A stretch of 64,000 bases of DNA from Branchinecta lynchi (lineage: Eukaryota; Arthropoda; Branchiopoda; Anostraca; Branchinectidae): positions 3,242,715 through 3,306,714 of the forward strand of contig JAKZAP010000008.1 of the NCBI GenBank assembly GCA_023053575.1. Reading direction: 5' to 3'. Shown here in pieces: positions 1 through 56,840 of this stretch (its first letter is position 1; the number at the start of each line of letters is the position of its first letter). The notes beneath the pieces are model-generated. The model ran no database searches, had not been told where the DNA came from, and was given only the letters and a program-made list of their open reading frames with translations. The position numbers and the translations under genes are program-made.

Positions 1-1118
1 TAAGTGGAGGGATGCCCATGACTTCCTTAAAGTTGTCCATCTGTCCGTCTGTTAGCACAATAACTCTCAAAAGGGTGGAGATATTTTCCTTAAATTTGGC
101 GTAAGGACTCTTTGGGTCAAAGTTCAAAGGTCAAGTTCCAAGATGGGCTCTGTAGCCATACATTTAGGGGCGGTGGAGGAGTTTCAAATTGAGGGACGAA
201 AAAAAGGATTTTATAAATCTACTGAGATAGCCAATTTAGGTATAAGGAGACATGCTGAAACTGAATAGGAAAATTATTTTCTCGCCGGAAAAGTAGTTCA
301 CGCGGAAACTCAGCAAATGGAAAGTTTTTGAAAAAAAAGTGTAATCAGAAGTAGATTAGTGGTTTAATTTAGGGGTAAGAAGACACTCCGACTACATATA
401 AAAAAAAAAATTTTTTGCCGGAAAACTAGTTCGTCTGGAATCCGGCCAAAACCCTTTTATTTTTGGTTTTATTTGAACTTGATTAGATGTTCAATCCAGG
501 GGTAAGAAGACATGCTGAATCCGTATATGACAATCATTTTCCACCCGGCGATATAGTTCGCCCAGAATCTGGCTGAAATCGGAAAAATTGTTATAAGTAA
601 AAGTTTTTCTGAAGTTGGTTAGAAAATCGTTGTTAATGAGGCATGCTGATTCCTTATGTAAATTATGTTCGCAGGACAAACCCGGAATCCCGCTAAAACC
701 TGAAAAATTTTTAAAAGTGAAAGTTTTATCTGAAGTTGGTTAGAGGTTCGATATAGGGGTACGGTATGGAGATATGCTGAATTCGTTTTTGATCTTTTTT
801 AAAAGAAAATCAGCTCGCCAAGAATCAGGCAGAAACCGGAAAATTTGTCAGAAGTAAGACAGCTGGAAGTTTTGATCAATTCCGTCAAAGAATATATGAT
901 GTAGGCTCTGTGTAGGCTATATGAGTAGAAACATCTGCTGAATCCATATCTGAACTTGGTTTTCTCAGATGGTTAGCCATTGACCTTAATCTGTTTCTAA
1001 ACTTCAACAGTTAAAATTTTCAAGAAGTCTGGCAAAGACCAGATATACACAAGATCCAACTGCCAGGGTGAGATATGAAATTTTTGGGGATCCCATTGAA
1101 ACCTTTGGTCTTGTTTTT
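1..1118 (-). repeat. 137-bp-monomer hairpin element, copy i
   Basis: Degenerate tandem monomers of about 137 bp fill this block; the recognisable phrase is aagaagacatgctgaat followed by the unit part cgcccggaatccggc. The left edge of the window cuts the element near its palindromic end (the first bases, taagtggagggat, are the sequence that follows the terminal palindrome in other copies). The far end is the half-palindrome GGGATCCCATTGAAACC near 1088, which also ends the copy at 55610-56840. It has no coding capacity. Comparison with the other copies gives orientation -. Monomers have drifted with many indels, so the copy is old. Confidence 0.75.
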
Positions 1119-1836
1119 CTGATTTCAGGAAGTCAAGAAAGTAATACTTTGGATATCATACCCTGACCACTGGAGTGTGCAAACGCACCCTCCATTAGGC
1201 CCCTACAAAGAAGTTTCTTTTTAACAAACATCTGTTAAGACAACTTCAAGCTTTAAGTTCCTATGCCTCTCCTTTATATAAGGATACAAATATATATTCA
1301 ACAATATACATTTCATCATTTCCCAACTTGTTTCATGACGTCACACTGACACTGACCTTACCAGTATCGAATAACTCGCTGAGACTGAGGTTTAGACCCT
1401 AGACTGGGCCTAATAATTCACATTCCTCAGCCAAGGTACGTTTCTCTAAATCAGTTTTATATATGGAAGTTAGCCTAGGAAACAGCTTCACACAGTTATA
1501 CGTTCAAGTTTTCTATTCACAGATAGCACTTACCATTTTAGGTTTTTTGACAAAATTTATTTAGGCAAGTTCAATCACAATCGCCGTCTTCTTCTTCTTC
1601 TGAACTTTCCGAAGTTTCCGAATTCCACAAATGATTGACGATCGTTTTTGCGCCAAATTTGAAACCAAGAAATGCGATCGTTTAGGGCAATGCAGTGACT
1701 GGTTTCCAAGTAATTCTAACGTGCATTGCAGAGAGAGTATCTCAAACCCTTAGGATTCGAACTGGAATAGGGTAAATCAAATCGGGAGTAAACGTAAGTT
1801 CCGTCATCTGGCCAACTACATCTGAACTTTGAAAGT
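1119..1836. other. 5' flank of CNTD1, no gene seen
   Basis: No reading frame with coding character or repeat family was recognised. The reverse strand near 1570-1640 can be read as a short acidic C-terminal-like peptide with a run of Glu codons from a CTT repeat, but no splice acceptor opens it, so it is not called. The stretch probably holds the promoter and 5' UTR of the CNTD1 gene that starts at 1837. Confidence 0.4.
1275..1343 (+). promoter_or_regulatory. TATA-like and CRE-like motifs upstream of CNTD1
   Basis: TATATAAG occurs at 1275-1282 and a perfect CRE palindrome, TGACGTCA, at 1336-1343, about 500-560 bp before the CNTD1 ATG. CRE sites are common in promoters of germline genes in mammals. 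Here both motifs could be chance, and the CRE lies downstream of the TATA box. Promoter function is an inference. Confidence 0.25.
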
Positions 1837-1876
1837 ATGACAAGTCCTGGAGGAAAAAAAGTTCTTCAAAAGGTTT
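1837..1876 (+). CDS. CNTD1: CNTD1 exon 1
   Basis: ATG at 1837 opens 13 codons (begins MTSPGGKK) and ends in phase 1 at the consensus donor GTAAGA. It was chosen because it joins exon 2 in phase; no family conservation is expected at this terminus, so the start is the least certain part of the model. Confidence 0.5.
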
Positions 1877-4800
1877 GTAAGATAATTTAATTTGACTTTC
1901 TCCTATACGGATCTGTGTACTCAGTCAGGGATTATTACTGTTATTGTGCAAGGAAGGCCAAACTCTATCACAAACTCTGATCGCACTTGGCCCATTGTCT
2001 CAATTGACTCAATCCCCAAATATAGCCTACAATTGATGGTGAACAAACACTCTAAACACAATTGATGAAATCACGACTCTTTTATTGGGGATTCCCCCTC
2101 AAAATTTGGAGCTTTTCGACAATTTTCTTGGCCATTTAGGCAAAGGCGCAAAATGGCCATTTCCCAAAAAAATGTTGCTGGGTTCCAGCTCAATCATTTC
2201 AGCGATAGTCGCTTGTCAAATTAAGGAGAGAAAGGGTAAATTTTGTTGGATGGAGGAAGCATGTGAACTATATTTCCTCCACTTCAGAATATATACAATG
2301 TAACTTTTCCCTTTGTTTGACAGCCTTTCTCGAAAGTGAGGAAGCTTAGACCCTAATCAATTTAAATAGATGGTAAGATTTCAGAAAACTGATAGCGACC
2401 TTGTGACACTTTAGCTGCGATAAAGCTAAAATCTTGAAAACAGAAAAACTGTGTCTCCATAGTTTCCAGCAGGTTTTTCGAACCTGTCCAGGAAAAGTTC
2501 AAGGCTTTACTCAAGGTCTCCAGGATGAGAACAACTGTAAGCTCTAATACCTTGGTTTCAGTTAGTCACATAGCTGGTTGTTTCTGACATCTTTTGTATT
2601 ATTGTGATTGAGTGGTCTATCACAGCCGCCACAGGGTGAGAAAATATAAGCTCTAGAACCTTAATTTCTTAGATTCAGTCATATAACTTGTTATTTCCGA
2701 CATGTTTTGCAATACTGCGGTAGAGAGACAGGTATCTTTCCCAATATCCATTTAGAAAAGAAGAAGATAGGCCTATTTTTGCAGTGAACCCAACTGTAGT
2801 AGTATTCATTTCAGGGGGATATACTTTTCCTTTCTTTTTCTAGCCAATGACGTGTGGAATGATCCTTTGAACCAACTGGGTCATGGCGATTTTGGTAAGT
2901 TACTTACAATAAGCAGAGCCCAATGATCGAGTAGTCCAGCTCTCGTCAGTTTTGGCCAGTTCTGACATCAGTTCAGTTAGTAAAAAATTTTCCGGCTCCA
3001 GCCGGATTCCCGTCGCACTACATGTTCGGGTAAAAAATGATTGTCATACACGGATTCACCATCTCTTTACCCCTAAATCGAATATCTAATCAACTAAAAT
3101 AAAACTCTAACTTTTAACAATTTTCGGTTTTGGCCGGATTCCGGGCGAACTACTTGTCTGGATAGAAAATTGTTTTCACATAAGTGTTCAGCATGTCTTC
3201 TTACCCCTAAATCGAACATCTAATCAACTCCAAATAAAACTTTTACTTTTAACAAACTTTCCGGTTCTGGCCGGATTCTGGGCTAACTACTTGTCCGGCG
3301 ATAAAACGGTCTTCACCATCGTGTTTAGCATGTCTTCTTACCCTTGATTCGAACATCTAATCAACTTCAAATAAAACTTTTACTTTTAACAAACTTTCCG
3401 GTTTTGGCCGGATTCCGGGCGAACTACTATTCCGATGACAAAATGATTGTCACCATCGTGTTCAACATGTCTTCTTACCCCATAATCGACTATCACATTA
3501 TCTGTTTAAAAATATTTAATTTGCCCCTTAATCTAAAACCCCTCCCCCACCCCTAAATGTAGGGCTAAATAGCCCGTCTACGAACTTGACCTTACTCTTG
3601 ACCCAAAGAATCCTCACACCAAGTTTCATCAAAATATCTCATTCCCTTCGAGAGTTACAGTGCGCACAGACGGACGGACGGACAGACGGACAACTTTTCC
3701 GATGTCATAGCTATCCCTCCACTTACGTTTTGGGATCCCAAAAACAACTTATTTTTGTATGATTTAATTGAATACATTGAATTATTTGTGTAGCCTAGTG
3801 TTAAGGGATTTTTTTGATTTTTTTTCACTATATGCTCTAGTAGTAACGTTCAAAATCTCTACGGCCGTCCCCACACCTCAAAGTTATGCTATGATGCGGA
3901 AAATCAGAATCTCGACACAAATGTGGTTTTTCAGTGGCCAGTGGTAAGGTTGGTGAACGCGTGGCTCACACATATGTTGACGAACGCCAAGCACATCATC
4001 ATCACTTTTGCCTGTCTCCTAACCGATTTCGTTTTCATCATTAGAACATTGACAATCTGCCATTTTATTTTTTGTAAGCCGTGTTCGTCAAGAATACAAC
4101 ACAGGGAGTGGCGAAACTAGGGGGGGGGGGGCAACTGGGACGTTTTTTATCATTCCGTTACCGACAAAAGCTCTGTAGGTAAAACATGAAACTTCTTGTT
4201 GGGAAATTGGCAGCGTTTGTCAGTGTGCAGGCGGTGCGTGGATTCAGTACTGACAAGAGCTCTGAAAAGTTGCGTTTGTATTGAGATTCAAATCCGCGTT
4301 ATAGTAGAATTTCCGCCGTTGATATCTTAACGTCATACTAGTGCAAATAGTGAAAAATTAAAAATCCCTTGACAATATGTTAAAACAATATGATGTAATA
4401 TTTAAATAATGCAGTGTGTTTAATTAAATGGTACAAATATAAGTTGGCTTTTCGGTTAAAATTTAAGCTTGCTTGGCAAATTTAACTCAAGATGTCGCTT
4501 AAAGTTTTGGCAGCTGCCCCCCCCCCCCCCCCCCCCCACGAAAATATTAGTCGGTAAAACGGATGTTTGTCGGTGCAAAGCACCGTCAAACGCTTTTATC
4601 ATTCCGTTACAGACAAAAGCTCTGTCGGTAAAACATGAAACTTCTTGTTGGGAAATCGGCAGCGCTTGTCGGTGCGGACGGTGTGTGCATTCAGTACTGG
4701 CAAGAGCTCTGAAAAGTTGCGTCTGTAATGAGATTCAGATCCGTGTCATAGTAGAAATTTGAGTTCTAAGGACGGATGATTAACCGTCGTGGATCGTGGA

Positions 4801-7800
4801 TGATTAAAGCCAATCGTTTAAAGGCTCTCTAAATGAAGCCTACAAGTTCGTAAAACGTAAGCGGTGCGCGAGTCATGGTCAGAATACACTGGTCCGGATG
4901 AAGAGTCCTGGCTTGGTCCTGGTTAAGCATTTTAGCGCCGAGTTCGATCCGCCGGACTCAAATTTAGAAGCTATTTATGAAAAATTACTTGGTCAGTCAA
5001 TATCCTCTCACAGTTTCGGTTTTGTTGAAGATATGACGATGCTGCGTCTGGCTGTTCGCCGGGTTCAGAAAAAGTATTCTCGTGGGATATATAAGCTGTG
5101 CGGTATGCATCTTGTTTACGGTACAGGATATTGATGAATCATCTCCTCATTTTATATCAGATTATATTTAAACTGGACTTGTTCCAGACACCTTTATTAC
5201 TGGAGTTTTAACTCCGGTTTTAAAAAAGAGCAAAGATCCAGCTCAGTGTGAATCTTACCGCCCTGTGTCACCTGTTTTGTGTAAATTAATGGAGTTTTGG
5301 GTAATTGAGGAGATTAATGCATTATGCTTGCCGCCCGATACACAGTTTGGGTTCAAGCGTGGTATGATTAGGGAACATGACACATGTTCATAGTATTGTA
5401 GCTAATGTATTCATAGATTTTGTTGAGATAGGAGAGACTGTGTATCTTGTAGGACATGATGTACGATGTGCCTTCAATTGGGTATACATTCTCATTGATT
5501 ATATTCTGCTAGCAGTAGAGGTCTAGACAAACCAGTTTGCGGTTTTAGTGGAGTGTTCTTTGGAACATTCCACTATTGCGAGCGCTTTAGCAGCTTTCGG
5601 CTATCGGTTTCCGGTTTTCACCGTATTTTTGGAGCTCGTAACCCATGAACCAGTGCCATTATCAAGTTCAAGCTTCATACACTAGTGGGTATTGGGATCA
5701 AGTTGTGTCTTTTGGGGGTCCTACCCCCCACCCCAACCCGGTTCAGGGGGAAATGGGCCCAGATTGCCCAGTGAATAATGTTCAGAACTTGACCAGAACT
5801 GAACATAGGACAAAGAAATTCCTTGTACTTGTAGATCCTAGGGCTGGGAAATTGCTTTTAAAGTTGCACCTCCCCCCCCCCCCCCACCCGTTCATGGGTA
5901 ACTGGGCCCAGATTGCCTATAGGAGAAAAGTTCGTTACCCATGACAGGAATCAAGAGGTATAATGTTGAAACTTGATAGGTTTGTGAGCATTGGGGTCTC
6001 TTTTTACTTTTTGCAGGTCCCAAAACCCCGCCCACACTTGGTTCAGGGGCAATTGGGCCCAGAATGCCCATTTTTAATGTTTTAACTTCACAATAACTGG
6101 AGATAAGGCGATGAAATTCCGTTGTGCTTTTGGATCATAGGGGTTGGGGAATTTGTGGAGTTGAACCATCCCCCACCCTCCCCGTTCGTGGGCAAGTGGG
6201 CCCAAATTGCCCATGAAAAAAAGTGTTTAAGCCGTGACTGGAATCAAACTCTAATCTCTATACTTGGGAAAAAAAGGTGTAAATACGCATTTCGATGGGT
6301 TCATGGACAGCTGGGCCCAGATTTCCCATGAGTTAAGTTCGTCTATGACAAGTCTCAAGCCCAACTCTTGTATATTGGGGAGTTATATCCATGGATGAGG
6401 GTTTTGGTGTAACAGAAACAAATAAGACGACGCAACGTACTTTAATCTTTAACGAACAGTTAGAAACTGGACTGTTTTGTCATATGATGGATGATATGCC
6501 GTTCTTAGTGAATTGTGACAAATGGGGTATTAAGCTGCTACGATTTCGTTTACTGCATTTGTTATTACCTTGCTAATGGAAAAGATGTTTAAAGGGTCGG
6601 ACTGGCTGGCAGACGATGGTTGGAACTCAGGCTATTCGTGCAAGATTTTCAACATTTCTTTGGACTTATACTTGTTGGTTTGTTTACATTCAAAGCTTTT
6701 AAAGTGGGATGATTACAAATTAGGTTATTTTAATACTTGTTTGGTTATTGGGGATGGGAAAGGTCTTGGTTCCAAAGCTGTTTGTATATAAAATGTGATA
6801 AACATTTTACTTTCAAACTCCACGTCTGAGCGCTTGCGCATTTGTTAGAAATGTGTATAAGAAACTGCATGTCAAAATCAGACTCAAATCTAATGATATT
6901 TCAGTTGTTCAAATCCCGTTTAAGAAAGGTATCCGCCAGGGTGCGATCACGTCACCACCATTGTATAATAACAGTGTAATTGATTCACAGACAAATGTTA
7001 TGACTACTTCTGTATTTCGTGGGTTGGATCTGTCATTACTGAATTATGCTGATGACATTTTAAATCTGACTAGAGCAGCTTCTATGATTGAAACAAATGT
7101 TCGGATTTTAAATGATGAATATGCAACTACAGGTCTGTCTGTCAATGCTAAAAAAGTGAAGTGCTGACATTCCGTGGCCCATAAAGATCTTAACGACATA
7201 GATAAATTTAAGCTTTGCGATCAAGAGTCGATGTCTCTCAGATATCTTAGACTTCCTATCGGTAGAGACATGGAGTCCGCTCGAGATGGACTTATTAGCC
7301 AGTTTTCACTTAGGACACGCAAAGCATATGGAGCACTTGTACCGTGCAAAGCGAAATATAACTGCCAGGTCCTAGCCCGCCTCTATTTGACTTTTGCAAA
7401 CCATCTTCTAGCACTATCCTCTGTTTGACCCGTATTTACGGCGACCGATAAGAAATGCATCCGTTCAATTTATTTCAAGTACGTCAAGTTTTTACTGGAA
7501 TTGCCATTCTGGATCAGATACGCTTATATTGCGAGAAAATACGGTATTGCAAATCCAAATCAGCATATGAAAGACCGGCGTAGTCGTTTTGCGGCGGGCT
7601 TGGAAATTAGCACAGTTTGTATCTTGCTATAGGCGTATTCTTGCCGTTCCTCCGGGGGGAGTCGAAGGCAACGGCTAGAATATAGGGAGTCACTCCAGCC
7701 GGACTCCGCGTACAGAAACAGTGAGAACACGGCTGGAATGCTTCCAAAATCGATTTTGTTCGAAAAAAAATATGCAGTTGACGAATTAGTCTGGATCCAC

Positions 7801-10800
7801 TTTATTTTTGGTTTTGTTTATTCTGATTGCTTCTAATTAATTTTACATTGCACTAAAACCAGCAAAAACGTATTCCCCTCCGAATCTGAAAGGGAGTCCT
7901 TTCTGATGACGGCGATGATGAACGGAGCATTCCCCGTGCGTGGTATCCACTCCTCAAGTGGAGTCCTCGGGAAACGGCGAAAATACGCCTTATGTTGTAA
8001 TTTAGTCTTTGTGTTTTATGTATTTAGCTGATGTAGATCTATTGCAGTTGTTGTTTTGTTTTTTCTTTCCTTTTTTTCTTCTTTTCATACTCCATTTAGG
8101 ACGCTTCATTTTCATACAAATGGATAATAAGTATATCATCATCATCTTACCTTTTTTTTGCACTTAATTCGAAACCCCCTCCTCTGCCTCTAAATATCGA
8201 AAGAACCCATTTACAACGTGGCGTGTACTTTGCTTGAACAACACATTTCTCTACCCCTTCGGCCTTCAACCCCCCGACAAGACAGATTTCAATGACTAAA
8301 CCCAAAGAATACGTACAAGAAACGTGACTCCCTCCGTAAACAAAGCGATCGTCCGACGCGCAGAGCTTTCGCCTGTATGGATAATAGTGCAGTATACATT
8401 TTGTCGTTTCCCTCTTTTGTTCTTTATTTCATTTTCTTCCATTTACTCCGTTCTTGTTCAGTTTGAATGTAACGGGTTATAAAGAATATATATATATACA
8501 TACACACAAAGGGGTAGGGTTGCCCCAGGACAGCCACCTGTTTTTTTTTCTTTCGAAAACTGATCGATAGATTTTATGAAATGGTTCACTAGACAGTTGT
8601 CGGATGCTTTCTGCCGTCTTACCCAGTAACATGCCAGCTGGGATCGCATACCCTTTTGTTTATCTTTAGTGTGTCCGAAAGTTGCAACAATAACATGTCT
8701 CCTCACGCTATATTGACTATATCATTGGGTTTAAAAATTTCATGCTAAACATCCGGATTCCGGGCGAACTACTTGTCCGGAAAAAAACAGTTTTCATTTT
8801 CGAATTCAACATATCATCTTACCCCAGAATGGAGTCTAATCCACATCAGATTCAACTTTAACTTTCTGCAAATTTTTCGGTTTTTGCCGGATTTTGGGGT
8901 GAATTACTTGTCCGGCGCGAAAATAATTTTCATATTCGGATTCAGCATAATTCCTTACCTCTAAATTGACTATCTCATTAGCTTTTAAAAAAAAAATATT
9001 TGTGCCCCTCAATTTGATACCCCCTCCCCCACCCCTAAATATACAGCTTTGGGGCCCAATCTACGAACTTGGCCCATCCCTTGACCGAAAGAATTGAAGA
9101 ATTCTCACTCCAAGTTTCATCAAAATATCTCATTCCCTTCGAGAGGTATCGTGCTCACAGACGGACGGACAGATGGACAACTTTTACGAAGTCAAAGGTA
9201 TCCCTTCACTTACATTTCGGGATCCAACAGACATGTGTGGAAATTACAAATCTGGAAAGGTTCATCTGTCGGGAATATTCTACTTCCTCTGGGTTTGCCC
9301 CGGGTATCGTTTTTATGGCACTTGAGCACACTCAAGTGCCATATAGCGATCGTAATTTCTGTCGGTCTGTCTGTCCGTCATTCTGTCGGTCTGTCCAGGT
9401 TTTGCTAGTTTGGGCACTTCCACACAAGCTAGGACGATGAAACTTCGCAGGCATATCAGGGACCCGACCAGATCAACTTACAAATAATCACTTCCCCAAT
9501 CCGACTGTCCCCGGATCGGGGAGTCCGGAAACTATAAAGCAAAAGGGGAGCAAAGCGTAACAAAGAGAGCGCTACCCAAAGGCGGGACCGATCCGCGGAC
9601 CTCTCGAGTCGCGAGTCCTGTGCTCTACCACGGGGCCAAGACTTGACGTATGAAAAAACGGGTGCGGGAGTAGATACGCTTTAAAGATTAAAGTAAGACC
9701 AAGTGGTCACAATGAAAGTGGTTAAACTAAACAAATCTCGTGAAACGCTTCCACATAAGCTAGGACAATGAAACTTGATAGGAATATAAGGGAACCGACA
9801 AGATTAACTTGGAAATAATCACTTTCCAGATCCGATCATAGTGGGGGGAGTGGAGGGATGGGAAATCCGGAAACTATTAACATGCATAACTTTGGAAAGG
9901 GTAACCGGACATGCGTGAAACTTGACATGTGTCAAGGACAAGTGTTTCGGATATTCAGTTTCAAATCCGGACCAGATTCGATACCTGTGGGGGGGGGGCG
10001 GCAGGGGCAACCCGAGGGGGGATGTCGAGGACCCCCTCCTCCTCAGCCCCGGGGGGGCTGCACCCCCAGCCCCCAGAAGGTCTGGGGAAGAAAATTGGGG
10101 TAATCCAACTGAACTTGATGATTTTTATGGAGTCGACCGGATTATTGCTTAGGTCAGGGAATTGACTGGATGATAGGGATCAGGGTATCTACCGGACTTC
10201 ACCCCAAGGAATCTACTAGAATTTTGGAATCTACCGGGATTTTGCTTAGGGAATCTACCTGAATTTTGCTCAGAATTTACCGGAATTTTGCTCAGGGAAT
10301 CTACCGGAATTTTGCTTTGGGAATCTACCGGAATTTGCTCAGGGAATCTACAGGAATTTTGTCAGTGCATTCACCGAAATCTTGATCAAGGAATCTACCG
10401 GACTTGTCTCAGGGAATTTACTGGAGGATGGATTAAGGGATCTACCGGACTTCGCCCCACGAATCTACTAGAACTTCAGAATCTACCGGGATTTCGCTCA
10501 GGGAATCTACCGGAATTTTGCTCAGGGAATCTACCGGAATTTTGCTCAGCGCATCTACCAAAATATTGCTCAAGGAAACTAGCGGAACTTGTCTCAGGGA
10601 CTTTACTGGAGGATGGATCAGGGGATCTACCGGACTTCGCCACACGGAATCAACTAGAATTTCGGAATCTATAGGGATTTTGCTCAGGGAATCTACCGGT
10701 ATTTTGCTCAGAGAATACCGGAATTTTGCTCAGGGAATCTACCGGAAAGTCTTTCCCAAGGAACCTATCGGAACTTGTCTCTAGGAATTTACTAGAGGCT

Positions 10801-13800
10801 GGTCAGGGAATCTACCGGACTTTGCTCCATGGAATCAACCAGAATTTGGCTCAGGGAAATACCGGAATTTTGTTTGCTTACCGGATAAGTATAGATTTAC
10901 AGCTTAACAGGATGGCCCTGGCACACAACTTACCAGAGCGATTCTTGCAGACAGACAACATTGCTGTGTACCGGAACATTCATCGAGTGATTCCAGTTTA
11001 TCTCCTAAGTTTCTGTAGCTTTCAAGAATTAGGCAACCTACTGAAATCCATCATTTCCAACTACAAATACTGTTCCAGGAATAATATCACTTTACCGTCT
11101 ACCCCAGTTTCGACAGCTTTCTCAGCTCCTTTCCGGTGTAAAGCCGAGAACAGTTCGAAGACGAGTTAGCCTTGTTCCGACATGATCTCAAGATCGCCTC
11201 GAAACAAGCAAAAAGAAAATATTCAAAGTTTTTCGTGAACTGAAAGAGTCTTACCGCTGGTGTCGAAAGCCTTCAAGCTGGCCAAGACAACCCCTGTTAC
11301 CTCAGAAAAAGGGGAAAGACTGTTAATTAAGCTTAGTGTTAGTTAAGAGCACTTTGTGTTCAACATTGACAGGCGTCTTTTACTAATCGCATTTGAACCA
11401 AACTAGTTGTCGAATGTGAAATTGGATGTGTTCTGAACAAATGGAAAACGCTTAGAACACGACGAATAAATGTGTAGGGTGGGTTGAGGGTAGAAGACTT
11501 TTTAGTTTTAACTGGCAATCTTAAAGTTTAACCGAATAGGTCTGAGGTCCAACACGTCTAGTAACCAGGGGCGTCAACTGGGGGGGGGGGGGGGGAGGGG
11601 GGACGCCCCCCCTCCCTAATGCTATCGGCCAGTCGGTGAAAAATAACCGGCGCCACGATTTTTCGTCAAAACAGTTGATTTTTTCCATGAAAACAGTCGG
11701 TTTTGGTGAAAATTGGTCGATTTTTCGACAAAATATCGCAGTTGGTTTTTCTGAAAATCAGTGGATTTTTCTGAAAATCAATCGATTTTTTTCAAAAATA
11801 TCATTTTTTGTTGAAAACAGTCGTTTTTTGTGCAGAAAAAGTCGGTAAAAATTACCAGCCAGTCGGTAAATGCCTCGTCCCCCCAAACAAATTTTGGCTA
11901 GTAACGCCTCTGCTAGTAACATTATTCACTTAAATATTCCTGAAAATCCGATAAAAATGCGTTACCTCGTTTCGCCTTTATCCAGGGATAGTCGATTTCA
12001 TAGAATGAACTTATTCTTTCTGATTTGTCATAGCTCTATGTGCTTGTCCCTCTATGCTTGAAATATTTACCAACTAGAAATGTCAGCCGTTGCCGAAAAC
12101 TAAGAATTATAAAATACTTTTCTACAGGTGTAACTTCTCCGATGTCGCATCAATCGCCTTGGAAATGTCGCCTTTTGTTTAAGTTCAAACTCTCCGCGTT
12201 TGGATGAATTTTGGTTGGTCATGCAAGCAGCGCACGCTCTGAACGTTATTACGAAAAATACAAAATCTCTCAGATGTGTCAAAATATTTCAGTATTCAAA
12301 CATCAGAATGAAAAACAAGCTGAATTTTCAGTAAAACTTCATCGAGCCTATTTTTTGTTGTTTGTGACACGATAGAAGTCAGGACACAACAGTAGGCCTA
12401 TTCTAGAGTTTCTGCTGAGATGGTGATTACGGAGACATTTCCGGTAAAATCTGGAAAAATTCCGGTAAAACTTCGACAAATTTCGGTAAAATTCAGAAGC
12501 CGCACCCCCCTATCAGGAAGGTTTCGGGACGCCCCCGGGGGGGGGGGGGGGGGGGGCGGGGGACGCTTCCACATAAGCTAGGACAATAAAATTTGGAAAG
12601 CATATCAGGGAACCGACCAGGTTAACTTGGAAATAATCACATATTAGGTACTTTCCTAGGTCGACCTGGAAATAGTTCCTTCCCCGACACGGTGATGCTG
12701 GGGGAGTGGAGGGATGGGGAATCCAGCATCTAGTGACATGCAGAACTTTAGAACGGGTGATCGGAAGTGAATGAAACTTGAGAAGTGTCAGGAACAAGTG
12801 CCTCAGATGATCAATTTCAAGTTCGGAACGAATCCTATAACTGGGGGGGGGGAGTTGGAGGGGGGTGCAAGAAATCTCGTGAAATGCTTAGAGTCGAGAG
12901 ATCGGGATGAATGAAACTTGTCAGGCATGTTAGGGACTCTTGTCAGATTGGCTTAAAAATAGTCCCTCCCCCGATCCGATCATCGTTGTGGGAGAAACAG
13001 TTACCAGTGAGTGGAAAACCATTTCAGATTTAGTAGATCAAGTCGATTTTCTGATGAAATGAATATCTGGAGAGAGATGCGGCCTTGACAACTGCAAACC
13101 GTATCTGAAAAACATGCTTACTGTTCTTACAAGTGCCATATGAGCTTTCAGCTCTTGTTCGTACAACGTACACAACAAAATATATTTACCTGGCTCAATA
13201 ACACAACATAAGTCTCTGTTTTAGGTGACCTTTTGGAAGATTGGATTGTATGTCTTTGGAAAGAAGTATCGAGTGATGAGCAAGCCAACCAGGTTCGAAT
13301 TCAGAGGAGTACAGTGATCTCGAAGATTTCATACATGTTATGTGAGAAATTAAAGCAACCGCGCGGGGTCTGGTACCACTCTTTGGAACTGTTTGAAAGG
13401 TAATCGACAATTCAGCTTCTTCAGATAGAGGCGAACAAAGCGCGTAGTGAAAACCGCAGAAACTGATTACGGGATTCGGTGTGGAACACTAAAAATATAA
13501 ATGAGCATATACTTGTTTAACTGAAAAGCCAGATTACTTTGGGATCCCAAAACGTAAGTGGAGGGATACTTATGACTTCGTAAAAGCTGTCCGTCTATCC
13601 CTCCGTCCGTCCGTCCGTCCGGCCAAAACCGGAAAGTGTGTTCAAAGTAAAAGTTTTGCTTAGAGCTCATTAGATGTTCAATTTAGGGGTAAGAAAACAT
13701 GCTAACATTTGTATGAAAATCAATTTATCGTCGGACAAGTAGTTCGCCCGGAATCCGGCCGAAACAGTAACATTTTTTAAAGTAAATGTTTTAATTTTAA

Positions 13801-26037: not shown

Positions 26038-26275
26038 CCTCTTTACCAACTATTAACAAGAAACCTTCATAAGATATAAAAGAAATTTTGATGATCCTAT
26101 GTTTCTTTTGCGCTCTTATCAGTCGCACAATTCTGGCTAGCTTCATCGAAAACCTGTGACGAATCGTCAAATTCTGCCACCAGTGGCGGCGACGGCTAGG
26201 GCCAGATACACCGATGCGGTTGCAACTAAATACGGCCCTGCCCGAGCTTCTTGGTATTTCGTGCCGACAAGTATA

Positions 26276-38968: not shown

Positions 38969-38984
38969 CTGGAAAAGAGCGTGT
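38969..38984 (-). promoter_or_regulatory. Splice acceptor immediately before the CSN4 ATG
   Basis: On the reverse strand the sequence is a pyrimidine-rich CTCTTTTCCAG joined directly to ATGG. It would accept either a 5' UTR exon or a trans-spliced leader. The WDR18 start has a similar arrangement. Confidence 0.55.
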
Positions 38985-42980: not shown

Positions 42981-43052
42981 GCCTCTATAGCTCAGTGGTA
43001 GAGCACTGGTCTTGTAAACCAGGGGTCCTGAGTTCAATCCTCAGTGGAGGCA
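42981..43052 (+). tRNA. tRNA-Thr(TGT)
   Basis: All arms pair: acceptor GCCTCTA with TGGAGGC, D arm GCTC/GAGC, anticodon stem CTGGT/ACCAG around loop CTTGTAA (anticodon TGT), T stem CTGAG/CTCAG around TTCAATC, discriminator A. It has 72 nt, no intron, and a TTTT terminator at 43061-43064. CCA is not encoded, as usual in eukaryotes. Confidence 0.95.
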
Positions 43053-43060
43053 AAATATGC

Positions 43061-43064
43061 TTTT
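43061..43064 (+). terminator. Pol III terminator of tRNA-Thr
   Basis: A run of four T eight nucleotides after the tRNA. Confidence 0.7.
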
Positions 43065-43660: not shown

Positions 43661-43669
43661 ATACGTCAG

Positions 43670-44689: not shown

Positions 44690-45230
44690 TCACTCGACCT
44701 CTTCTGAGGTTCGTGGTAACTTCCGAATCCTGGCAATTATAACGAATAATTACCGAATCCCAGTTATTATACCGAATAAGTTTAGACCAATAGCATGTTC
44801 AGGATTCTGTATAACTACCGTATCCCGGTTACTATATCGAATTGTTTTGGTATCGAAAGACTACCGAACAATATTCTTATTCGGTATACTTTGGTCGAAA
44901 CTGGAACAAAGTCAGGATTTGTTGTTAACTTCCGAATCCTGGAAATTATACTGGATAAATTACCGAATCCTAATCATGATACCGAATAATTTTGAACCAA
45001 TAGCTTATTCGGGATTCTGTGTAATCTCCATAAATATACCGAATAGTTCCGGCATATAAAAATTACCAAATAATTTCAGTAAATTCTCTCACCAAATTCG
45101 TGATAACTACCGAATACTGGCAATTATACCGAATCCCGATCATTATACCGAAGAGATTTGTACATATAGCCTATTTAGGATTCTGTATAACTACCGAATC
45201 CCAGTAAATATATCGAACAGTTCTCCGGAA
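44690..45230. repeat. CCGAATCC/ATTATACCGAATA tandem repeat
   Basis: Short units rich in taccgaatcc and attataccgaata make a larger unit that recurs at about 44786, 44992 and 45160 (gaccaatagc..attctgtataacta). The periods are uneven, about 206 and 168 bp. It leads directly into 144-bp-family monomers. Confidence 0.65.
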
Positions 45231-46880
45231 GTCTTATGAAAGGCTTAGAGTCGAGGGATCGGGATGGAACTTGGTGGGAAGAACAAGCATAAACCCTAGA
45301 TACTTAACTGAGAAAACAGGACCGGATCGTGTCAAAGTGGGGGGAGTTGGAGGGGTTTCCAGGAATTCCGGCGGTCTGTAGTTAAGGTACTTCCAGATGC
45401 GCTAGGACCATGAAACTTGGCAGGCATATTAAGGACCATATTAGCTTGGAAATAGTCCCTTACCCGATCCGATCATCGTGGGGGGAGTAGAGGGACGAGG
45501 AATCTGGAATCTAGTGATATTCATAACTTTGGAACAGGTGATCGGACGTGTACGAAACTTGACAAGTGTCAGGAACAAGTTCAGATGTTTAGTTTCAAGT
45601 CCGAACCGGATCTCATCATTGGTGGAGGGAAGCTCAAGCGGGCACCGGAAATCGTGAAACACTTAGAGCCGAGGGATCAGAGTTAAACTTGGTTGAACGA
45701 ATAAGCGTACACACCCTAGACACATTACTGACAAAACAGGACCGGATCATGCCACAGTGGGGGGGGGGGGGGTTGGAGGGGCTTTCCCGGAATTCTGGTG
45801 ATCTCGAGCTAGGGTGCTTCCAGACGTGTTCGGACCATGAAACTTGGCAGGCATAATAGGGAATCTACCATTTTCACTTGAGAATAGTCCCTTCTTCGAT
45901 CCGATCATCGTGGAGGAATACAGGGATGGGGAATCCGGAATCTGGTGACTTTCATAGCTTTGGGACAGGTGTTATGAACGTGCATGAAACTTGACAAGTG
46001 TTAAAAACAAGTGTCTCAGATTTTCAGTTTCAAGTCCAGACCGGGTCTAATCACTGGGGAGGGGAGAGCTGGAGGGCGCACGGAAAATCTCGTGAAATGC
46101 TTTGAGTCGAGGGATGTTAGTTGGAAGAACAAGCGTAAAGGCTAGATCCAGTATTGACAAAGCAAGACGGGCCTTGTCAATGTGAGGGGAGTTTGAGGGG
46201 TTTCCCGGAATTACGGTGATAGCGAAAGGTACTTCGAGATTTGCTGAGACGACGAAACTTGGTACGTATATTAGGGACTCGACCAGATTGACTTCAAAAT
46301 AGTACCTTCCCGACTCGATCATCGCGGAGTGAGAAGGAATCCGGAATCTAGTGACATTCATAACCTTGGAACGGGTGATTGTATGTAAATGAGACTTCAG
46401 AACAGATGCTCAAGAACAATTGTCTTAGATGTTCAATTTGAATTTTGAACTGGATCCAGTAACTGGTGGGGAGGAGCTGGAGGGGTGGCACTGGCATCAT
46501 TGTGAAACCCTTAGAGCCGATGGATTGGGATGGAACTTGATGGGGACAATATAGATAAACCCTGGATTCATTATTGACCGAGCAGGCCCGGGCCGGGGCA
46601 TTGTGGGTGGAGCTGGAGGGGATTTCCCCGAATGCCGGTGATAACGACTTAGGGTACTTCCAGGTTTCCTATGACGATGATACTTGGCAATCGTATCAGG
46701 GACCAGACCAGATTCACTTGGAAATAGTCACTTCCCCGTTTCGACCATGAATGGATGTGGAATTCGGAATCTAGTGGCATGTAGAACTTTCGCATGGGTT
46801 CCATTTCAACTTAGGACCAATTCCGATGCCAAAGTGGAGCTCGAAGGAGGCCACCGGAAATCTCGTGAAATCCCTTCCAA
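45231..46880 (+). repeat. 144-bp-monomer array without terminal palindrome
   Basis: About eleven diverged monomers (gatggaacttggtgggaagaa, catgaaacttggcaggcat, gatcggacgtgtacgaaact). Neither the palindrome nor the right terminus is present. Divergence is higher than in 39160-42399, so this is an older copy. Confidence 0.75.
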
Positions 46881-46989
46881 CTACTTCGTGGTATGACCAG
46901 TTGGGTCACATAATCATCACAGCTGGATATTTGCTCCTACCATTGATTGAGTCATACGCGAATCGGAAGAAGAGTAGCCTACGACAAAA

Positions 46990-47110
46990 CACATAACCCT
47001 TACTCTGAAACAGTTGTCAATGAGTGGAACAAAATTCGACATTTACTAGATCAATCCCGTCTTCTGGTGAAAGAAATATCGGGAGAGAAATCTGACTTTG
47101 ACATGTGCAG
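46990..47110 (+). other. Coding-like module shared with 13000-13100
   Basis: Reads SETVVNEWNKIRHLLDQSRL and onward to SGEKSDFD. At 12990-13100 a related stretch follows 144-bp monomers and reads GETVTSEWKTISDLVDQ, with a stop. Both lie just after the monomers, so the module may belong to a subfamily of that element. I do not recognise the peptide. Confidence 0.3.
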
Positions 47111-47734: not shown

Positions 47735-48405
47735 TACCATGGTTTCTGTTACCACAGTAACTGGATCTGCAATTAGTCGTTTCTGCAGTTATTGTGGTAT
47801 CTGATAATGATGCTCTGCAAAAACGACTATTGCCAAAATTGCACTTTTTGAAGTCATCCCAAAAGAAAAACAGATATCCAGTTACATCACTAAGTGCTAA
47901 ACTTCTTTCTAACCATCTGACAAAATTTGATGAAAGTGAGATGACTTTTCAGATACCACGGTCGGACCGTAGTATCTGAATATCAGATACCACAATAACT
48001 GGCCAGATACCACAATAACTGCAAAAATTACTTTAGACAGTGCAGTCAACCACAAACCCCTGATTTTTGGATACCCTATGCCAAACGTTGGATATGTCTA
48101 GTGTTTGGCATAACCTATGCCTAACGCTGGATACACTATGCCAGATGCTGGATACTGTAACCCAGTGAAATATTGATGATTTGAGTGAAGCTAAAAAATC
48201 AACCAATCAGGACTTCTTTATATTGGGGTAGGTCAAGGTTAGGTTACCAACAGGTATCCAACGTTTGGCATAGGGTATCCAGCGTTAGGCATAGGCTATG
48301 CCAAATGCTAAATATACCCAGCGTTTGGCATAGGGTATCCAAAAATCAGGGATTTGTGGTAGACTGAGACAGTGGTATCAGATACCATGGTATCTGCAAA
48401 AAAGC
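47735..48405. repeat. GATACCAC/CAGTAACTG dispersed repeat, copy 1
   Basis: Contains actgataccatgg, gacttttcagataccacgg and many ataactg/gatacc words in both orientations. A partner at 54870-55160 matches it over about 250 bp. An hAT MITE splits it at 48043-48366; removing that MITE restores the match to the partner. Confidence 0.7.
48043..48366. mobile_element. hAT-type MITE with duplication AGACAGTG and very long inverted ends
   Basis: AGACAGTG at 48035-48042 and 48367-48374. Ends CAGTCAACCACAAA and, inverted, CAGTCTACCACAAA. Arms continue for about 45 bp (CTGATTTTTGGATACCCTAT..). The middle repeats a tatgccaaacg/cgtttggcata palindrome. Confidence 0.9.
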
Positions 48406-50330: not shown

Positions 50331-50344
50331 TGTGCAATGAACCT

Positions 50345-52501
50345 GCAATCTTTGTTTAGTAAGTAAGTAAGTAACGAATTTATTTCAAAAAACCACTATC
50401 ATGGCAATGCCAAATTTGGGTATTACGTCAAGTATAATGCACATTTTATAGTCTATACAGTTAATCATCAATTCGTCATCACAGACCTATTATAGTATAT
50501 AAATAAAAACCAAAAACAGAACACGGACGTTGGGATAATATCACAGACAGCTACCACCATCATTATAAATTTTGGTGAAACTCGGAACGAAGCTTTTTTG
50601 GTACCGCATATGTGTTGCAGGTACGGGGGACAACTTTGGAACCTTTGAACTTGCGACCCTCCCTGTCGGTTTCTTGTGTTTTCATAAGGAGGGGGAAGGA
50701 TATCAAATAGAACAGGATGGTGGAGGAGCTTAAGACCAACCGCTAAGCTCAGCCGCAGTCTCCGACTCTCAAGGGTTTCCATCTTAAACTTTTTTAAGAG
50801 AGCAGAATAGGGAACTTTGGGCTCACAACTTATTATTAGGAGTGCACGTTTCTGTATTCTTTCTATTTGTTGTGACTGTTCGGCAATAAGGGCAAAGTGC
50901 CAAACAGCAGCCGCGTATTCCAAAGTGGATCGAATGAAAGAAACGTAAATTCGGATAAGATGGGAATTAGGTACTTGGAACTTAGCCAGAAGTTTTAACA
51001 GCTGTAGACCAGCGTTTGCACGCTTTAGCATTACGTTGGTGTTGTCCTCCCATTTAAGATCAGACGTGATAGTTACACCAAGGAGCTTTAGCTTCTGTAC
51101 CTGTAAACCAGATGGCAGTATTTCTTCAAAGGAAATGCTAGTTTTGAGGAAGGAAAAGGTTAAAATTGCACTTTTGTCTTCGTTTACTTGCATGTCCAAC
51201 AACCTGGCTTCATCTTTAATGTCTTCTATTATGCCTGCAGCTTTGCTTTTAATATTTCTGTAGCATACTTCGGTTAAGCTTAAATCATCCACAAATTTCC
51301 AGCGATCCGGGTGCTCTTGCGCTATGTCATTCATCATGACAAGGAACAGGATAGGTCCAAGTAAAGTTCCCTGCGGAACACCACAGAAAATATCCGATAG
51401 TTCAGAGAACACGTTTTTGTACTTCGTTGTTTGTTTTCTATTCTTCAAAAATCCAACTAAAATATTTACAATAAAAGGACTGACCTTGAACTTTTCGATA
51501 AGTCTCTTAATCAAAATTGTATGATTAATGAGATCAAAACCTTTTCTAAAATCTATGGTTATTAAGTTAATCCACTTATTAGGGTCGTCCAAATTTTTTA
51601 AAATAAAATCAATTAGACTAATTAAGTAATGACTGGTAGAAGTTTTAGGACGGTTCCCGAATTGTCTCGGGTCGATCTGCGACATTATCTCTGCTTTCAA
51701 CCACGCGGATACAAAACTCTCGTAAATTTTGCTAAAAACTGGTGTTAGAGTTATAGGCCTAGTCCCATCAAAATCATTTTTTGCTTCTTTCGTCGGGATA
51801 GGCGTAATATAACCAACTTTCCAAATTTCAGGGTATGTACCTGTAAGGGAAATTGAATTAAAAATATCTGTAAGTGGACCTGCCAGTTCATTGGGAAAAG
51901 CCCTGATTAACTCGACGGGTATGTCAACAGGGGTTACACTAGTACGTTTTAAAGAACTTAACTTTTTTGAAACTTCGTCGCGTGAAATTCTTGGTACTTC
52001 TTTCTCATCAACTGGTTCTTGGGGAATACTTTCAACAACAAGAGGGGGAAGTGATTGGACTATTTTTGAAAGATGGGAATTTAACTGGTTTGCTGTGCTT
52101 TTATCATCTTGATCAAGATTAAAATCCATTGATTTCTCACTTTTTCCACAAAGGCGCTTAACATTTTTGTACCAGTTACTAGGTTTAGACTGAAACAGAA
52201 TTCCAACTTTATTTGAGTAAAAACTTGCTGCTGCATTTCTAGTTTCTTTTCGTATTCTATTTCTCAGCTTCTTACCTTCCTCCGTTTTTCCCTCCCTGAA
52301 CAGTTTAATTTTTTGACGAATTAGCTTTTTTATAGCAGCCGTAATGTATGGTCGATTAGTAGAGCATCTCTTGTAAGTCTTTTCTGGAAAACACTGTTCG
52401 TACTTATTTCTGAGTTGGTTTGTTCCTTCCTGAATTTTGTTCTTGATGTTCCACAGCCTGATAAGGACCCTTGACAAAAAGAACCAAACATTGCTGCCCA
52501 A
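50345..52501 (-). pseudogene. CR1/L2-like LINE, reverse transcriptase with FVDD box, 5'-truncated
   Basis: One open frame of 677 codons (52501-50468). The opening residues are probably flank; similarity begins at NKYEQCFPEKTYKRC. Then TRPITLTPVFSKIYESF, FGNRPKTSTSHYLISL, IDFRKGFDLINH, GVPQGTLLGP and KFVDDLSL follow, then the thumb RSTLEYAAAVWHFALIAEQS. The endonuclease is absent. The 3' tail is (TTAC)n at 50358-50375. The frame is uninterrupted, so the copy is fairly young. Confidence 0.85.
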
Positions 52502-52639
52502 GTATCTTAGCTGACATATCTATTTTGTGCATTAGTTACATTTTTGCAGATACCATGTCGGAATGTCGGAATCGTTTATTAATAAAACAGCTGTCGTAGC
52601 CTTCTCGTGGACGAGACGCTAAATTACGCTATTCTTTAC

Positions 52640-54851
52640 AAATTCAAAATAAATATATAGCAAGGTACTACACTTCTTTGTTATAACGGTCAGTAAAAAA
52701 CGGCACGAACGAGTGGGCGAACCGGTTTGTTCTGGTTTTCACAGGCACAAGCTTATTGCAGCGACGGGTACGACTAGTACTTGGGGCGTCAGGTGGAAGA
52801 ATGGATCTGTGTTTGTCACTAGCGAGCAGATTACGGCCGAAGTTCATTATAAGTTCTTTTCGACGGTCGAACAAGGTAGGTAACCGTAAGTCTCGTAGAG
52901 CTTGCTCGTATGTTAGGTACTTCGGGCCTAATGTTATTTTTGCCGCACGCTTCTGGACGGCTTCAATTTCCTCTGTTAGGTAAACGGTGTTCTGGATTTG
53001 AGGGCCCCACACTGGGCAACAATACTCGAGTATCGGCCTTACGTTAGTAACATAAGCTTGGCGGAGATCAGAAACGCTGAAACCCAGCCTGCGCATTGAT
53101 GTTAAGGTCAGTAGTGCGTAATGTCCTTTCTGCACGATTTTCTCAATATGTGGCCGAAAAGAGCAGTCACTGCTAAAAATGACGCCCAGGATTGTAGCTC
53201 CTTTAGAGACTGGGAATTGAGTGTCGGGTTGCGAAACGTCCCGTTTGAGCAGGTTAAACCTTACCACTTTGGATTTCTGCTGGTTGATTTCGAGGCTGTT
53301 TCTTTCGCATTGTGCTTTGAATTCAGAAAGTAAAGTTTGGCTAAACTGTGGTAGTGGAGTTGAACCTTCAATCCGGTACTTAAGGATTGCCGATAAGTCG
53401 TCAACAAACTTAAATCGTTCCTCGAAATCAGAAAGCACGGAATTGATCACGGCCAGGAAAAGTAGAGCTGCTAATTTTGTACCCTGAGGTGCGCCACAGG
53501 TAAGTTCAGTCCAGTCGGAGTTAACGTCGCTGCTGTAAAGTGCATAGACACACTGGCGTCTGTTACGCAAAAAGTCAATGACCAGCAATAGTGTATGCCT
53601 CATTGCGCCCATGGTTCTTAGGTTGGTAACAGCAACAAGATGCTTGATCAGGTCGAAAGCCTTACGAAAGTCGACCAGTAACAAATCGAGGATTACACCG
53701 CCTCTATCCAGCCATTCAAGGATTAGATGGAACAGCCTGACTAGGTAAACTGCGGTACTGCTGCCTCGGATACAACCATACTGGTAGACGTCCATGGACG
53801 GTGACACTTGGGACAAAAGTTGTCTATAAATGAATGTCTCAGCAACTTTTGCAAGGTTGGGCGTTACTGAAATAGGCCTTAGTTGATCGCAGGACTGGGG
53901 GGTTTTCACTTTAGGTATCACCCGAACATACGCTTTTTTCCACGCCCCTGGAAACTTTTGCTCTCGGAAGCACTGGTTTATTATCGAGGCGACGGGCTTT
54001 GCTAGAAATGGTGCGAACTCTCGGAGCAGGGATACGGGTAGCTCGCCAGGATACGAAGCACAGTTTTTCCTCAGTTTCTCTATCTCCTTAGACACTTCAT
54101 ACTCGGTAACTTCTGGGATGTCGTCACGGGGACAATCAGCCAGCAGCTCCTGAATTTCCGAGTCTGCAAGGGTAGGGTGGGTGGTTGAGATAGTAGTAAA
54201 AAACTGATTCACTTCCTGGGCGTTAGTCAGTGACCCGTCATTCTTAACAATCTTAACTTCATTAGAGTCACACTGTCCGGTCAGGCGCTTAACAGCTTGA
54301 TGCCACTTTCGCGATTCACCTGTTAAGAGGGGGGAGATTTTCTCGCGCGTATATCGCTTGCGGGCGGCTCTTATGCATGAAAGTATCTTGTTTCTCAGTT
54401 TGTTAGCATCTTCGGTGTGTCCCTGTGCAATCAAACGGCATTTACGCTTAATCCTGTCTTTGATGTTTCTGGTCAACCATGGTTTATCGGATTCACTGAC
54501 ATAAACTGTCTTTGTGGGAAAGTACTCGTGAAACTTGGAAAGTAGCACTGAGTATAGTTCCTCAACTTTTTGGTCTATAACTCGAATCTCACAGATGGCA
54601 CCGAAGTCAAAGTTTCCAATCCAGCGACCGTATGCGTTAACTGAATCAGCATTTATAGGTCTGGACGTTTTCTTTAGTTTCCTGGGTTTGGGTAAACTAG
54701 CCTTTGACTCCCAGAGAAGGACATTGTGGTCAGACTTCCCGAGGGGTCCGAGTGATTTTGGTGGTAAGTAGTAGTCACTCAGGTTTGTCAAAATGAGATC
54801 GAGGATACTACCGCTTTCGTGGGTCGGTGAAGTGACAACTTGTTTTAACAC
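52640..54851 (-). pseudogene. CR1/L2-like LINE, partial endonuclease plus reverse transcriptase with FVDD box
   Basis: Open frame 54851-52668, 727 codons. It starts in the last third of the APE endonuclease (LDLILTNLSDYY, SDHNVLLWE), then has LRPISVTPNLAKVAETF, YGCIRGSSTAVYL, LVDFRKAFDLI, CGAPQGTKLA, KFVDDLSA and ends RFAHSFVPFFTDRYNKE. The frame is uninterrupted. It lies directly 5' of the LINE at 50345-52501 in the same orientation, but they are different families. Confidence 0.85.
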
Positions 54852-54869
54852 GTGACAAGTGACAACTTG

Positions 54870-55160
54870 TATCTGTTACAGTGGTATCTGATATAGGATT
54901 GCTCTGCAGAACCGACTATTGCCGAATTTGCACTTTTCAAAGTCATCCCAAAAGAAAACTGATATCCAGTTACACCACTAAGTGCTAAACATCTTTCTCA
55001 CCAATCTGACAAAGTTTGATGAAAGTGAGATGACTTTTCAGTTACCACGACCAGTTACCACATTCTAACCGTAGTATCTAAATATCGGATACCACAGTAA
55101 CTGGCCAGATACCAAGATAACTGCAAAAACACCTTTTGACCGTGGTATCAGTTACCATGA
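54870..55160. repeat. GATACCAC/CAGTAACTG dispersed repeat, copy 2
   Basis: Matches 47790-48040 plus 48375-48400, for example aagtcatcccaaaagaaaac and gatgaaagtgagatgacttt. It gives the uninterrupted form of the site where the 48043 MITE landed. Confidence 0.7.
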
Positions 55161-55529: not shown

Positions 55530-55600
55530 GAATTCTGTTTTGTGCTGTAGATTATGGAATGTGGCAAGAAAAGAATATCTATTTGTCACTAATCATTGAA
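55530..55600 (+). pseudogene. Broken duplicate of WDR18 exon 1
   Basis: The acceptor (TGTTTTGTGCTGTAG) and the following tggcaagaaaagaat..tatttgtcac match the start of WDR18 at 58365-58425. The start codon is changed (GTG in place of ATG) and the sequence leaves homology after about 35 bases, then runs into a 137-bp-family element. Confidence 0.65.
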
Positions 55601-55609
55601 GGCTCTTGT

Positions 55610-56840
55610 TTTTGAACTGGTGGGATATCTATGACTTCGTAAAAGTCGTCTGTCTGTCCATCAGTCTTATGAGCACGATAAGTTTCGAAGGGAATGATAT
55701 ATTTTGATGAAACTTTGTGTGAGTTCTTTGGGTCAATGGACAGGTCAGGTTCGTAGATGGGCTATGTAGCCCTACATTTAAGGGTGGGGGAGGGGTTTCA
55801 AATTAAGCGGCGAATTAAGAAGAGACATGCTGAACACGAATATGAAAATCATTTTCTCGCCGGACAATTAGTTCACCCGGAATCCGGCTGAAACCGGAAA
55901 CTTTGTTAAAAGTAAAAGTTGTACTTGAAGGTGATTAGATGTTCGAATTGGGGGTAAGAAGACATGCTGAATATATGTCTGAAAATTATTATCTTGTCGC
56001 AGAAGTAGTTCAACCGGAATCCGGTCAGAACTGGAAAATTTGTTGAACATAAAAGTTAAATCTGAAGTTGATTAGATGTTCAACTTAGGGGTAAGAAGAT
56101 ATGCTGAATCAGTATATGACAATAATTTTCTACTTCGGCATATATTTCACCAAGAATCCGATGGAAACTGGACAATTTCTTAAAAGTTAAAGTTTTATCT
56201 GAAGATGATTAGAGGTTCGGTATAGGGTAAGGAGATAAATAAATGAATTTATTCCCAATAAAGACCAAGGTCCATGGCGGGAAACATAATACAATAACAA
56301 AAAAAAAAATGAAAATATCATACACTCCGAAAACAACCCAAAATCAACTTCTATAAAAAAAAAATAGTTCACGGTGGGTCATAATAGCTAGCTTCAGGAA
56401 TCTACCCAGCCTTCGGAGCTCACCAAAACACTTACTTCCCATACATGAAACCAAATCCCTTTCCTCCCAAGCCTCCTGACCAAACACTTCCTTTCTTAAT
56501 TCTTTCAATTCCTCACAATGACATATCAAATGTACCGCATCCTCTCCTTCAATACCACACATTGGACAAAATTGGATTCATTTTTTAGCTTGTTTTTTTT
56601 GCTGGACAAGTAGTTCGACCGGAATTCTGCTGAAACAGAAAATGTGGCAGAAGTATAAGGCAGGGAAGTTTTGATCAGCCTCGTCAAAGTAGATTCAACA
56701 TATAGGGGTAAATATTCTGTTTAAAGTATTCTAAATACTAAAAATGCTCAAGGAGCATAGCAAAGACTGGATATTGACAAGACCAATTATCTAGATCAAA
56801 TATTAAGTTTTTGGGATCCCATCGAAACCTTTCAAGATAC
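55610..56840 (-). repeat. 137-bp-monomer hairpin element, copy vi
   Basis: gacatgctgaa-type phrases at 55824, 55961 and 56098 give an exact 137-bp period. The far end, GGGATCCCATCGAAACC, is at about 56815. A LINE fragment is inserted at 56227-56590. The palindromic end is replaced by the duplicated WDR18 sequence. Confidence 0.85.
56227..56590 (-). pseudogene. LINE C-terminal fragment inserted in copy vi
   Basis: Reads MCGIEGEDAVHLICHCEELK and SKCFGELRRLGRFLKLA in -, giving a C-x2-C..H..C cluster typical of LINE C-termini. The 3' end has ATAAATAAATGAATTTATT-type tail sequence. Pair of 23060-23370. Confidence 0.65.

Follow-up and report, generated by a model that had tools for sequence, protein, structure and literature searches.

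A 64-kb stretch of the genome of the anostracan Branchinecta lynchi (contig JAKZAP010000008.1, positions 3,242,715 to 3,306,714; hereafter the window, numbered from its first base) carries three dispersed repeat families with tandem cores, which are very probably HINEs, i.e. non-autonomous, non-coding relatives of Helentrons that carry tandem repeats. The families were located by self-comparison and Tandem Repeats Finder, and have monomers of 137 bp (family A), 144 bp (family B, arranged in 432-bp trimers) and 149 bp (family C). Five copies of family A, three copies of family B with both ends and one copy of family C are present in the window.

In the available parts of two published descriptions, HINEs consist of a left repeat, its inverted partner, a microsatellite mostly of 4-nt units, a tandem array, a right repeat and a palindrome, and they insert at TT without duplication (PMC7492417; PMC4067079). 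The comparison with this layout was made by description; the tested points were found in family B, and in part in A and C. The architecture is already known as one class, and what appears to be new is the presence of members in a branchiopod crustacean. The initial annotation of the window had reported three repeat families with a common architecture, which is largely real, although only half of the layout had been seen: it assigned one palindromic end to each element, while a second conserved end is present in all three B copies.

Ends, arrays and insertion sites of family B

Family B includes B1 (9310-13159, plus strand), delimited by five T's and a palindrome starting at 9310 and by a terminal CTTGTT ending at 13159; B2 (33983-36277, minus strand), delimited by end motifs and self-comparison; and B3 (39154-42399, plus strand), delimited by end motifs and by joined flanks that match a paralog, and situated in an apparent 3' tail of a long interspersed nuclear element (LINE). 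B1 is interrupted at about 10,010-12,560 by other sequence, which, by self-comparison, has B monomers before and after it.

The 5' end has the same order in all three copies: five T's, a palindrome with a 13-bp stem (TATGGCACTTGAG..CTCAAGTGCCATA, three copies in the window) and a GTCY tetranucleotide tract. In B3 the five T's and the palindromic subterminal repeat with its inverted partner occupy 39154-39189, folding into a 13-bp stem with a 4-nt loop, and the tract follows at 39213-39244; the tracts of B1 and B2 lie at 9361-9376 (plus strand) and 36203-36218 (minus strand). None of 500 shuffles was as stable as the 13-bp stems of the three copies. The 3' end is likewise ordered identically in the three copies, with an 11-bp inverted copy of the 5' repeat, an GAGCTnnnAGCTC hairpin and TTGTT. 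It covers 42369-42399 in B3 (ACAAGTGCCATA as the inverted copy, hairpin GAGCT-CGT-AGCTC, TTGTT), 13129-13159 in B1 (plus strand) and 33983-34013 in B2 (minus strand). The hairpin GAGCT-3 nt-AGCTC is conserved throughout; B2 and B3 have CGT as its loop, and B1 has TTC. In each copy, none of 5000 shuffles gave an inverted match between the ends as long as the observed 11 bp, and subterminal inverted repeats of HINE type (about 11-15 bp, at both ends) were found in family B only. The end sequences of the family are TTTTTATGGCACTTGAG / ACAAGTGCCATATGAGCTnnnAGCTCTTGTT.

Palindromes alone are unspecific in this DNA. The window has 33 hairpins with a stem of at least 10 bp, and three random control sequences of first order had 8, 12 and 9; for stems of at least 12 bp the counts were 9 against 1, 2 and 2. 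Four of these nine longer hairpins are ends of families B and C.

The central array of B3 (39422-41170) has a period of 432 bp and 4.1 copies according to Tandem Repeats Finder, and the unit is composed of three monomers of about 144 bp which are 63-67% alike. Units 2, 3 and 4 are mutually 96-98% identical, and unit 1 is 81% like them. As cut, B2 (2300 bp) and B3 (3248 bp) share 91.7% identity over 2151 aligned columns. They differ mainly by a single gap of 862 bp, which approximates two 432-bp units; a further five gaps, of 16 to 155 bp, occur on one side or the other. Judged from the sequence, the pattern in the B3 array fits recent growth by whole trimer units, via unequal exchange or copying slippage. 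The B2/B3 pair offers a small natural example of how an array inside a mobile element changes in length by approximately whole higher-order units. The variable copy number initially ascribed to all three families is seen in B as this difference of about two units; family C has a single copy in the window.

A second array lies inside B1 at 10226-10872, with 24-bp GGAATCTACCGGAATTTTGCTCAG units and a 186-bp period at 10296-10847. It may represent an additional core array, two arrays being described for some oyster HINEs (available parts of PMC7492417), or may belong to a later insertion. B1 and B3 share a right module of about 45 bp; the B1 tail upstream of it has its best match elsewhere, at about 47006-47109. 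That match belongs to an element at 45225-47109 with B-like monomers and a B1-type tail, in which no B 5' or 3' end was found. Ahead of it lie TACCGAATCC-like repeats and, at 44616, a weak palindrome resembling that of A; the element could be a module chimera or two neighbours. The palindrome was rejected as a family A 5' end because its score of 28 (z 4.9) was exceeded by at least one of 300 shuffles, the highest of which reached 33.

For the insertion sites, self-comparison showed that the matches between B copies begin at the T's preceding the palindrome. The joined flanks of B3 match a second copy of the LINE tail at 16356-16556 across the junction (74% over 211 columns, E 4e-33); the piece giving this value still contained three terminal element bases, and without them the flanks still align across the junction to this paralogous empty site. 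All three sites are flanked by five T's and TT. The check whether the palindromes lie at the element boundaries, on which the initial annotation had made its reading depend, was run and was survived by family B, through the start of the copy matches at the T's and the empty site of B3, and by family C, through the reverse-transcriptase frame described below.

Families C and A and their relatedness

Family C is represented by one element (5543-6843, plus strand) that interrupts a LINE reverse-transcriptase frame at a run of T's; its boundary follows from protein alignment across the junction, the terminal T's not being assignable. The flanks read as one protein, gap-free at the junction in three of four relatives, while the fourth stops short; two of the four are from Artemia franciscana. 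Four T's (TTTT) are present on the left and three (TTT) on the right. By our reading, about four T's are needed by the interrupted frame, which fits T's carried by the element and also a TTT duplication. The 5' palindrome at 5546-5575, a subterminal repeat with its inverted partner (TAGTGGAGTGTTC..GAACATTCCACTA), was found by hairpin scan and folding, and none of 500 shuffles was as stable as its 13-bp stem. The weak 3' end at 6817-6839 consists of ACTCCAC, which matches the 5' repeat in inverted orientation over 7 bp, and of a GCGC-TT-GCGC palindrome seen by eye; the best computed hairpin there differs from the latter with an equal stem (4 bp), and the fold is not significant. Monomer anchors lie at 5754, 5903, 6054, 6197 and 6312 (spacings 149, 151, 143 and 115), and the element matches itself over about 290 bp at 71%. 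The core of tandem monomers initially proposed for every family was recovered as 137-bp arrays in A, monomers of about 144 bp within 432-bp units in B and anchors 115-151 bp apart in C.

For family A, 19 monomer matches were found in all, and their grouping into five copies (with 5, 4, 2, 4 and 4 matches in A1 to A5) is our own assignment. A1 (1-1106, plus strand) has its 5' tip cut off by the window start, monomer matches at 244-859 and a 3' end at 1081-1106 in common with A5. A2 (2981-3746, minus strand) has a 5' palindrome at 3728-3743 and a GTCY tract at 3668-3691; A3 (8730-9233, minus strand) has a degenerate 5' palindrome; A4 (13537-14810, plus strand) has a 5' palindrome at 13537-13552, a tract at 13605-13620 and monomer matches that are divided by intervening sequence (about 13,830-14,625). 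A5 (55610-56832, plus strand, start approximate) combines a decayed 5' end, a tract at 55648-55667 and a 3' end at 56808-56832. The order of the family is 5' palindrome, GTCY tract, array and 3' end. The palindrome TTTTGGGATCCCAAAA of A2 recurs in A4 with one mismatch, and 137-bp arrays were detected by Tandem Repeats Finder at 3067-3489 (3.1 copies) and 55823-56219 (2.9 copies). A1 and A5 have about 120 bp of tail and the 3' end TTTTTGGG(G)ATCCCATYGAAACCTTT in common (z 20). The left end of A2 matched the right end of A1 over 9 bp (19 of 5000 shuffles) and that of A5 over 13 bp (0 of 5000). The 5' fold is weaker than in B and C, with fractions of 0.026 (A2) and 0.072 (A4) of shuffles as stable.

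Relatedness of the families was assessed for nine pairs of elements or parts of them on two strands, i.e. 18 comparisons with 60 first-order Markov controls each. Three of the 18 gave z >4: A2-B2, due to the GTCY tract, and the C-B2 and C-B1 minus-strand comparisons, due to poly-C runs. Suggestive scores were obtained for two further comparisons of C, one with the left part of B1 (plus strand, z 3.8) and one with B3 (minus strand, z 3.6). Six monomer comparisons gave no signal, all with z <1.4. The initial statement that the families have no obvious common sequence thus appears largely real beyond the GTCY tract of A and B, with the two suggestive C-B scores as a reservation.

A scan of the whole window for at least four GTC[CTG] units with at most two substitutions returned six tracts. 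Each of them sits directly inward of the left end of an A or B element, and family C has none. The tetranucleotide tract of GTCC/GTCG type noted earlier inside the palindromes of A and B is therefore real, and the left-flank microsatellite of HINEs is present in both families. A further motif, GATGAAACTTGG, had been seen by eye in the left flank of A and in B monomers. It was dropped because the A-B signal was confined to the GTCY tract and because, in a literature search with strings related to the motif, only two of the matches listed were by title repeat studies, both of them on plants.

Probable assignment to HINEs and alternative explanations

The assignment is based on both ends and the boundary of B, the boundary of C, the T-rich ends, the lack of duplication beyond T's in B and the difference of about two units between B2 and B3. 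We infer for these elements a rolling-circle step, a trans-acting protein and the identity of this protein. The elements would move in trans via a Rep/helicase(-endonuclease) protein encoded elsewhere. Start and stop signals for the copying of one strand would be provided by the subterminal repeats, the 5' one paired with its inverted partner and the 3' one with the hairpin. The copy would insert between T residues without target duplication, and the family arrays would grow and shrink by whole units. As the element interior would be free to vary, each family could carry its own satellite-like array. The earlier proposal of one mobilising machinery, dependent on hairpin ends and tolerant of tandem cores, fits insofar as a common kind of machinery is concerned, which is already known as Helentron-type rolling-circle transposition of HINEs; a single autonomous element serving all three families finds no support here.

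Several points weigh against this assignment. No Rep or helicase family was detected in Pfam scans of 40 reading frames of the window (33 of the 109 frames of at least 70 amino acids and seven longer ones); the single Exo_endo_phos match fell in a frame that also holds a reverse-transcriptase match. For family B, folding of the 3' end by itself is weak, the same stability being reached by fractions of 0.018, 0.118 and 0.078 of shuffles. A TT duplication is indistinguishable from T's of the element, and the paralogous empty site of B3 is diverged; its alignment contains a 13-bp gap some 14 bases ahead of the junction and, immediately past it, two gaps of 2 bp each. The 3' subterminal repeat of family C is weakly significant at 7 bp (128 of 5000 shuffles match as long), a short T-only duplication (TTT) is compatible with the data, and the family has no GTCY tract and a single copy in the window. 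The 3' end of family A was not found in three of five copies (A2, A3 and A4), a scan with up to four mismatches finding A1 and A5 only; its fold is unremarkable (0.088 and 0.670 of shuffles), and no empty site is known. Because the repeat of family A is self-complementary, subterminal repeat and palindrome are indistinguishable. Family A fits the HINE layout less completely and is its weakest case.

Among the alternatives, the elements could belong to Helitron2, rolling-circle elements with palindromes at both ends and without an endonuclease domain, instead of Helentrons proper. The two are inseparable here without a coding partner; the GTCY tract, the satellite cores and the T-rich ends correspond to the HINE picture in the published parts cited above, and Helitron2 is considered unlikely. 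It is quite improbable that one Helentron protein recognises shape (a subterminal hairpin pair) and not sequence, mobilising three families that have no sequence in common in their ends and cores and carry satellites of their own; in such a reading the higher-order 432-bp unit of B may be a freely evolved satellite form.

Inverted repeats at both ends and a non-coding interior are also expected of cut-and-paste miniature inverted-repeat transposable elements or foldback elements with tandem cores, and a T-only duplication would be compatible with the data. At all three B sites, however, no adjacent repeat longer than 2 bp, and no target-site duplication of the cut-and-paste type, was found outside the terminal T's; moreover, the inverted repeats of B are subterminal and its two ends are built differently, which makes this explanation very unlikely. 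Dispersal of satellite arrays through recombination or circular DNA, with incidental palindromes and no transposition, would account for a B2-B3 difference of mainly about two whole 432-bp units. It is hardly credible given the fixed non-repeat ends on both sides of all three B copies, the paralogous empty site of B3 and the insertion of C in a LINE frame, which already contradict such scattering for B and C. The 3' hairpin and the lack of duplication outside the T's would also fit canonical Helitrons (5' TC, 3' CTRR, insertion between A and T), yet these can practically be dismissed, since all three B copies lack TC or CTRR termini, starting with TTTTTATGG and ending with AGCTCTTGTT.

Among the closest known systems are the Cg_HINE elements of the Pacific oyster, which, in the available parts of their description, also have a left subterminal repeat with inverted partner, a GTCY-type microsatellite, a tandem core, a right subterminal repeat accompanied by a palindrome, insertion at TT that leaves no duplication and unrelated families within one genome (PMC7492417). 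The same parts report 11 HINEs and 13 array clusters, some elements being unrelated in all modules yet of the same architecture, microsatellites of GTCY, GTCC or GTCK in six elements, and 10 autonomous Helentrons, none of them relatable to any Cg_HINE (PMC7492417). Several unrelated families of one architecture in one genome are therefore expected and not new. A view of the likeness as convergence peculiar to this genome is not supported, and convergence of unrelated mechanisms was rejected as well, the layout being published as one class. The earlier remark on nucleosome length is not needed, as oyster consensus monomers span 138-181 bp across the 13 clusters (available parts of PMC7492417). 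The Branchinecta elements differ from Cg_HINE, by description, in their branchiopod host, the trimeric 432-bp array unit of B and the lack of a GTCY tract in C.

DINE-1 of Drosophila and HINE-Mo are similar in the 3' palindrome, the T-rich boundaries and the microsatellites or tandem repeats of some copies, HINE-Mo also in its palindromic subterminal repeats, and the accessible text gives no evidence of target modification for either (PMC4067079). They differ in host, and partner Helentrons have been identified for them according to the same text, the likeness again being one of description (PMC4067079). Pearl elements of oysters and ark clams, described in part in PMC7492417 as having short arrays of up to six repeats of about 160 bp and as later re-categorised as non-autonomous Helentrons, are also alike by description and differ in monomer length and host.

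Literature searches with five terminal strings of A and B gave no related study by title, and those on Artemia, Anostraca and fairy shrimp with Helitron or Helentron gave, among the matches listed, none that by title treats such elements in Anostraca. The range of tandem-repeat-carrying HINEs apparently widens here to include a branchiopod crustacean. The nearest sequenced relative found for it has a large load of rolling-circle transposons: Helitrons are reported, in the accessible part of that study, as 8.81% of the Artemia franciscana genome (PMC11492255). Scans of viral contigs with B and A ends gave no matches; the exact ends of B and the boundary of C can be used to look for an autonomous partner.

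Other features of the window

Another family, at 20405-21756 and 25507-26041, shows inverted self-similarity and ACTAAAACCAGGAAGGG ends. It has its own 143-bp tandem unit at 21117-21462 and is perhaps of foldback type, another carrier of an array of about 140 bp. Long hairpins with stems of 13-15 bp outside the three families were found at 47948-47980, 15613-15648, 15881-15916 and 48296-48333, and self-comparison showed that 47788-48042 recurs at 54875-55144.

LINE-like reverse-transcriptase frames were identified by the Pfam scans on the minus strand at 16661-18463, 27819-31426 and 50468-54875. An uninterrupted frame of 404 amino acids for COP9 signalosome subunit 4, with PSMD12-CSN4_N, PCI and helix-turn-helix domains, lies on the minus strand at 37769-38983; having no intron, it is possibly a retrocopy. 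It is 81% identical to the Artemia franciscana protein and at most 68% to others among the best 120 of 1330 matches, in a search that scored only the 7995 candidates with most words in common. A tRNA-Thr gene (anticodon TGT) is situated at 42981-43052 on the plus strand. Among 30 short frames scanned with Pfam (E up to 0.05), WD40 was found in one, a weak VanZ match in another and nothing in 28. A perfect 71-bp tandem duplication at 61985-62126 overlaps the start of a frame at 62093-62473 with WD40 matches.
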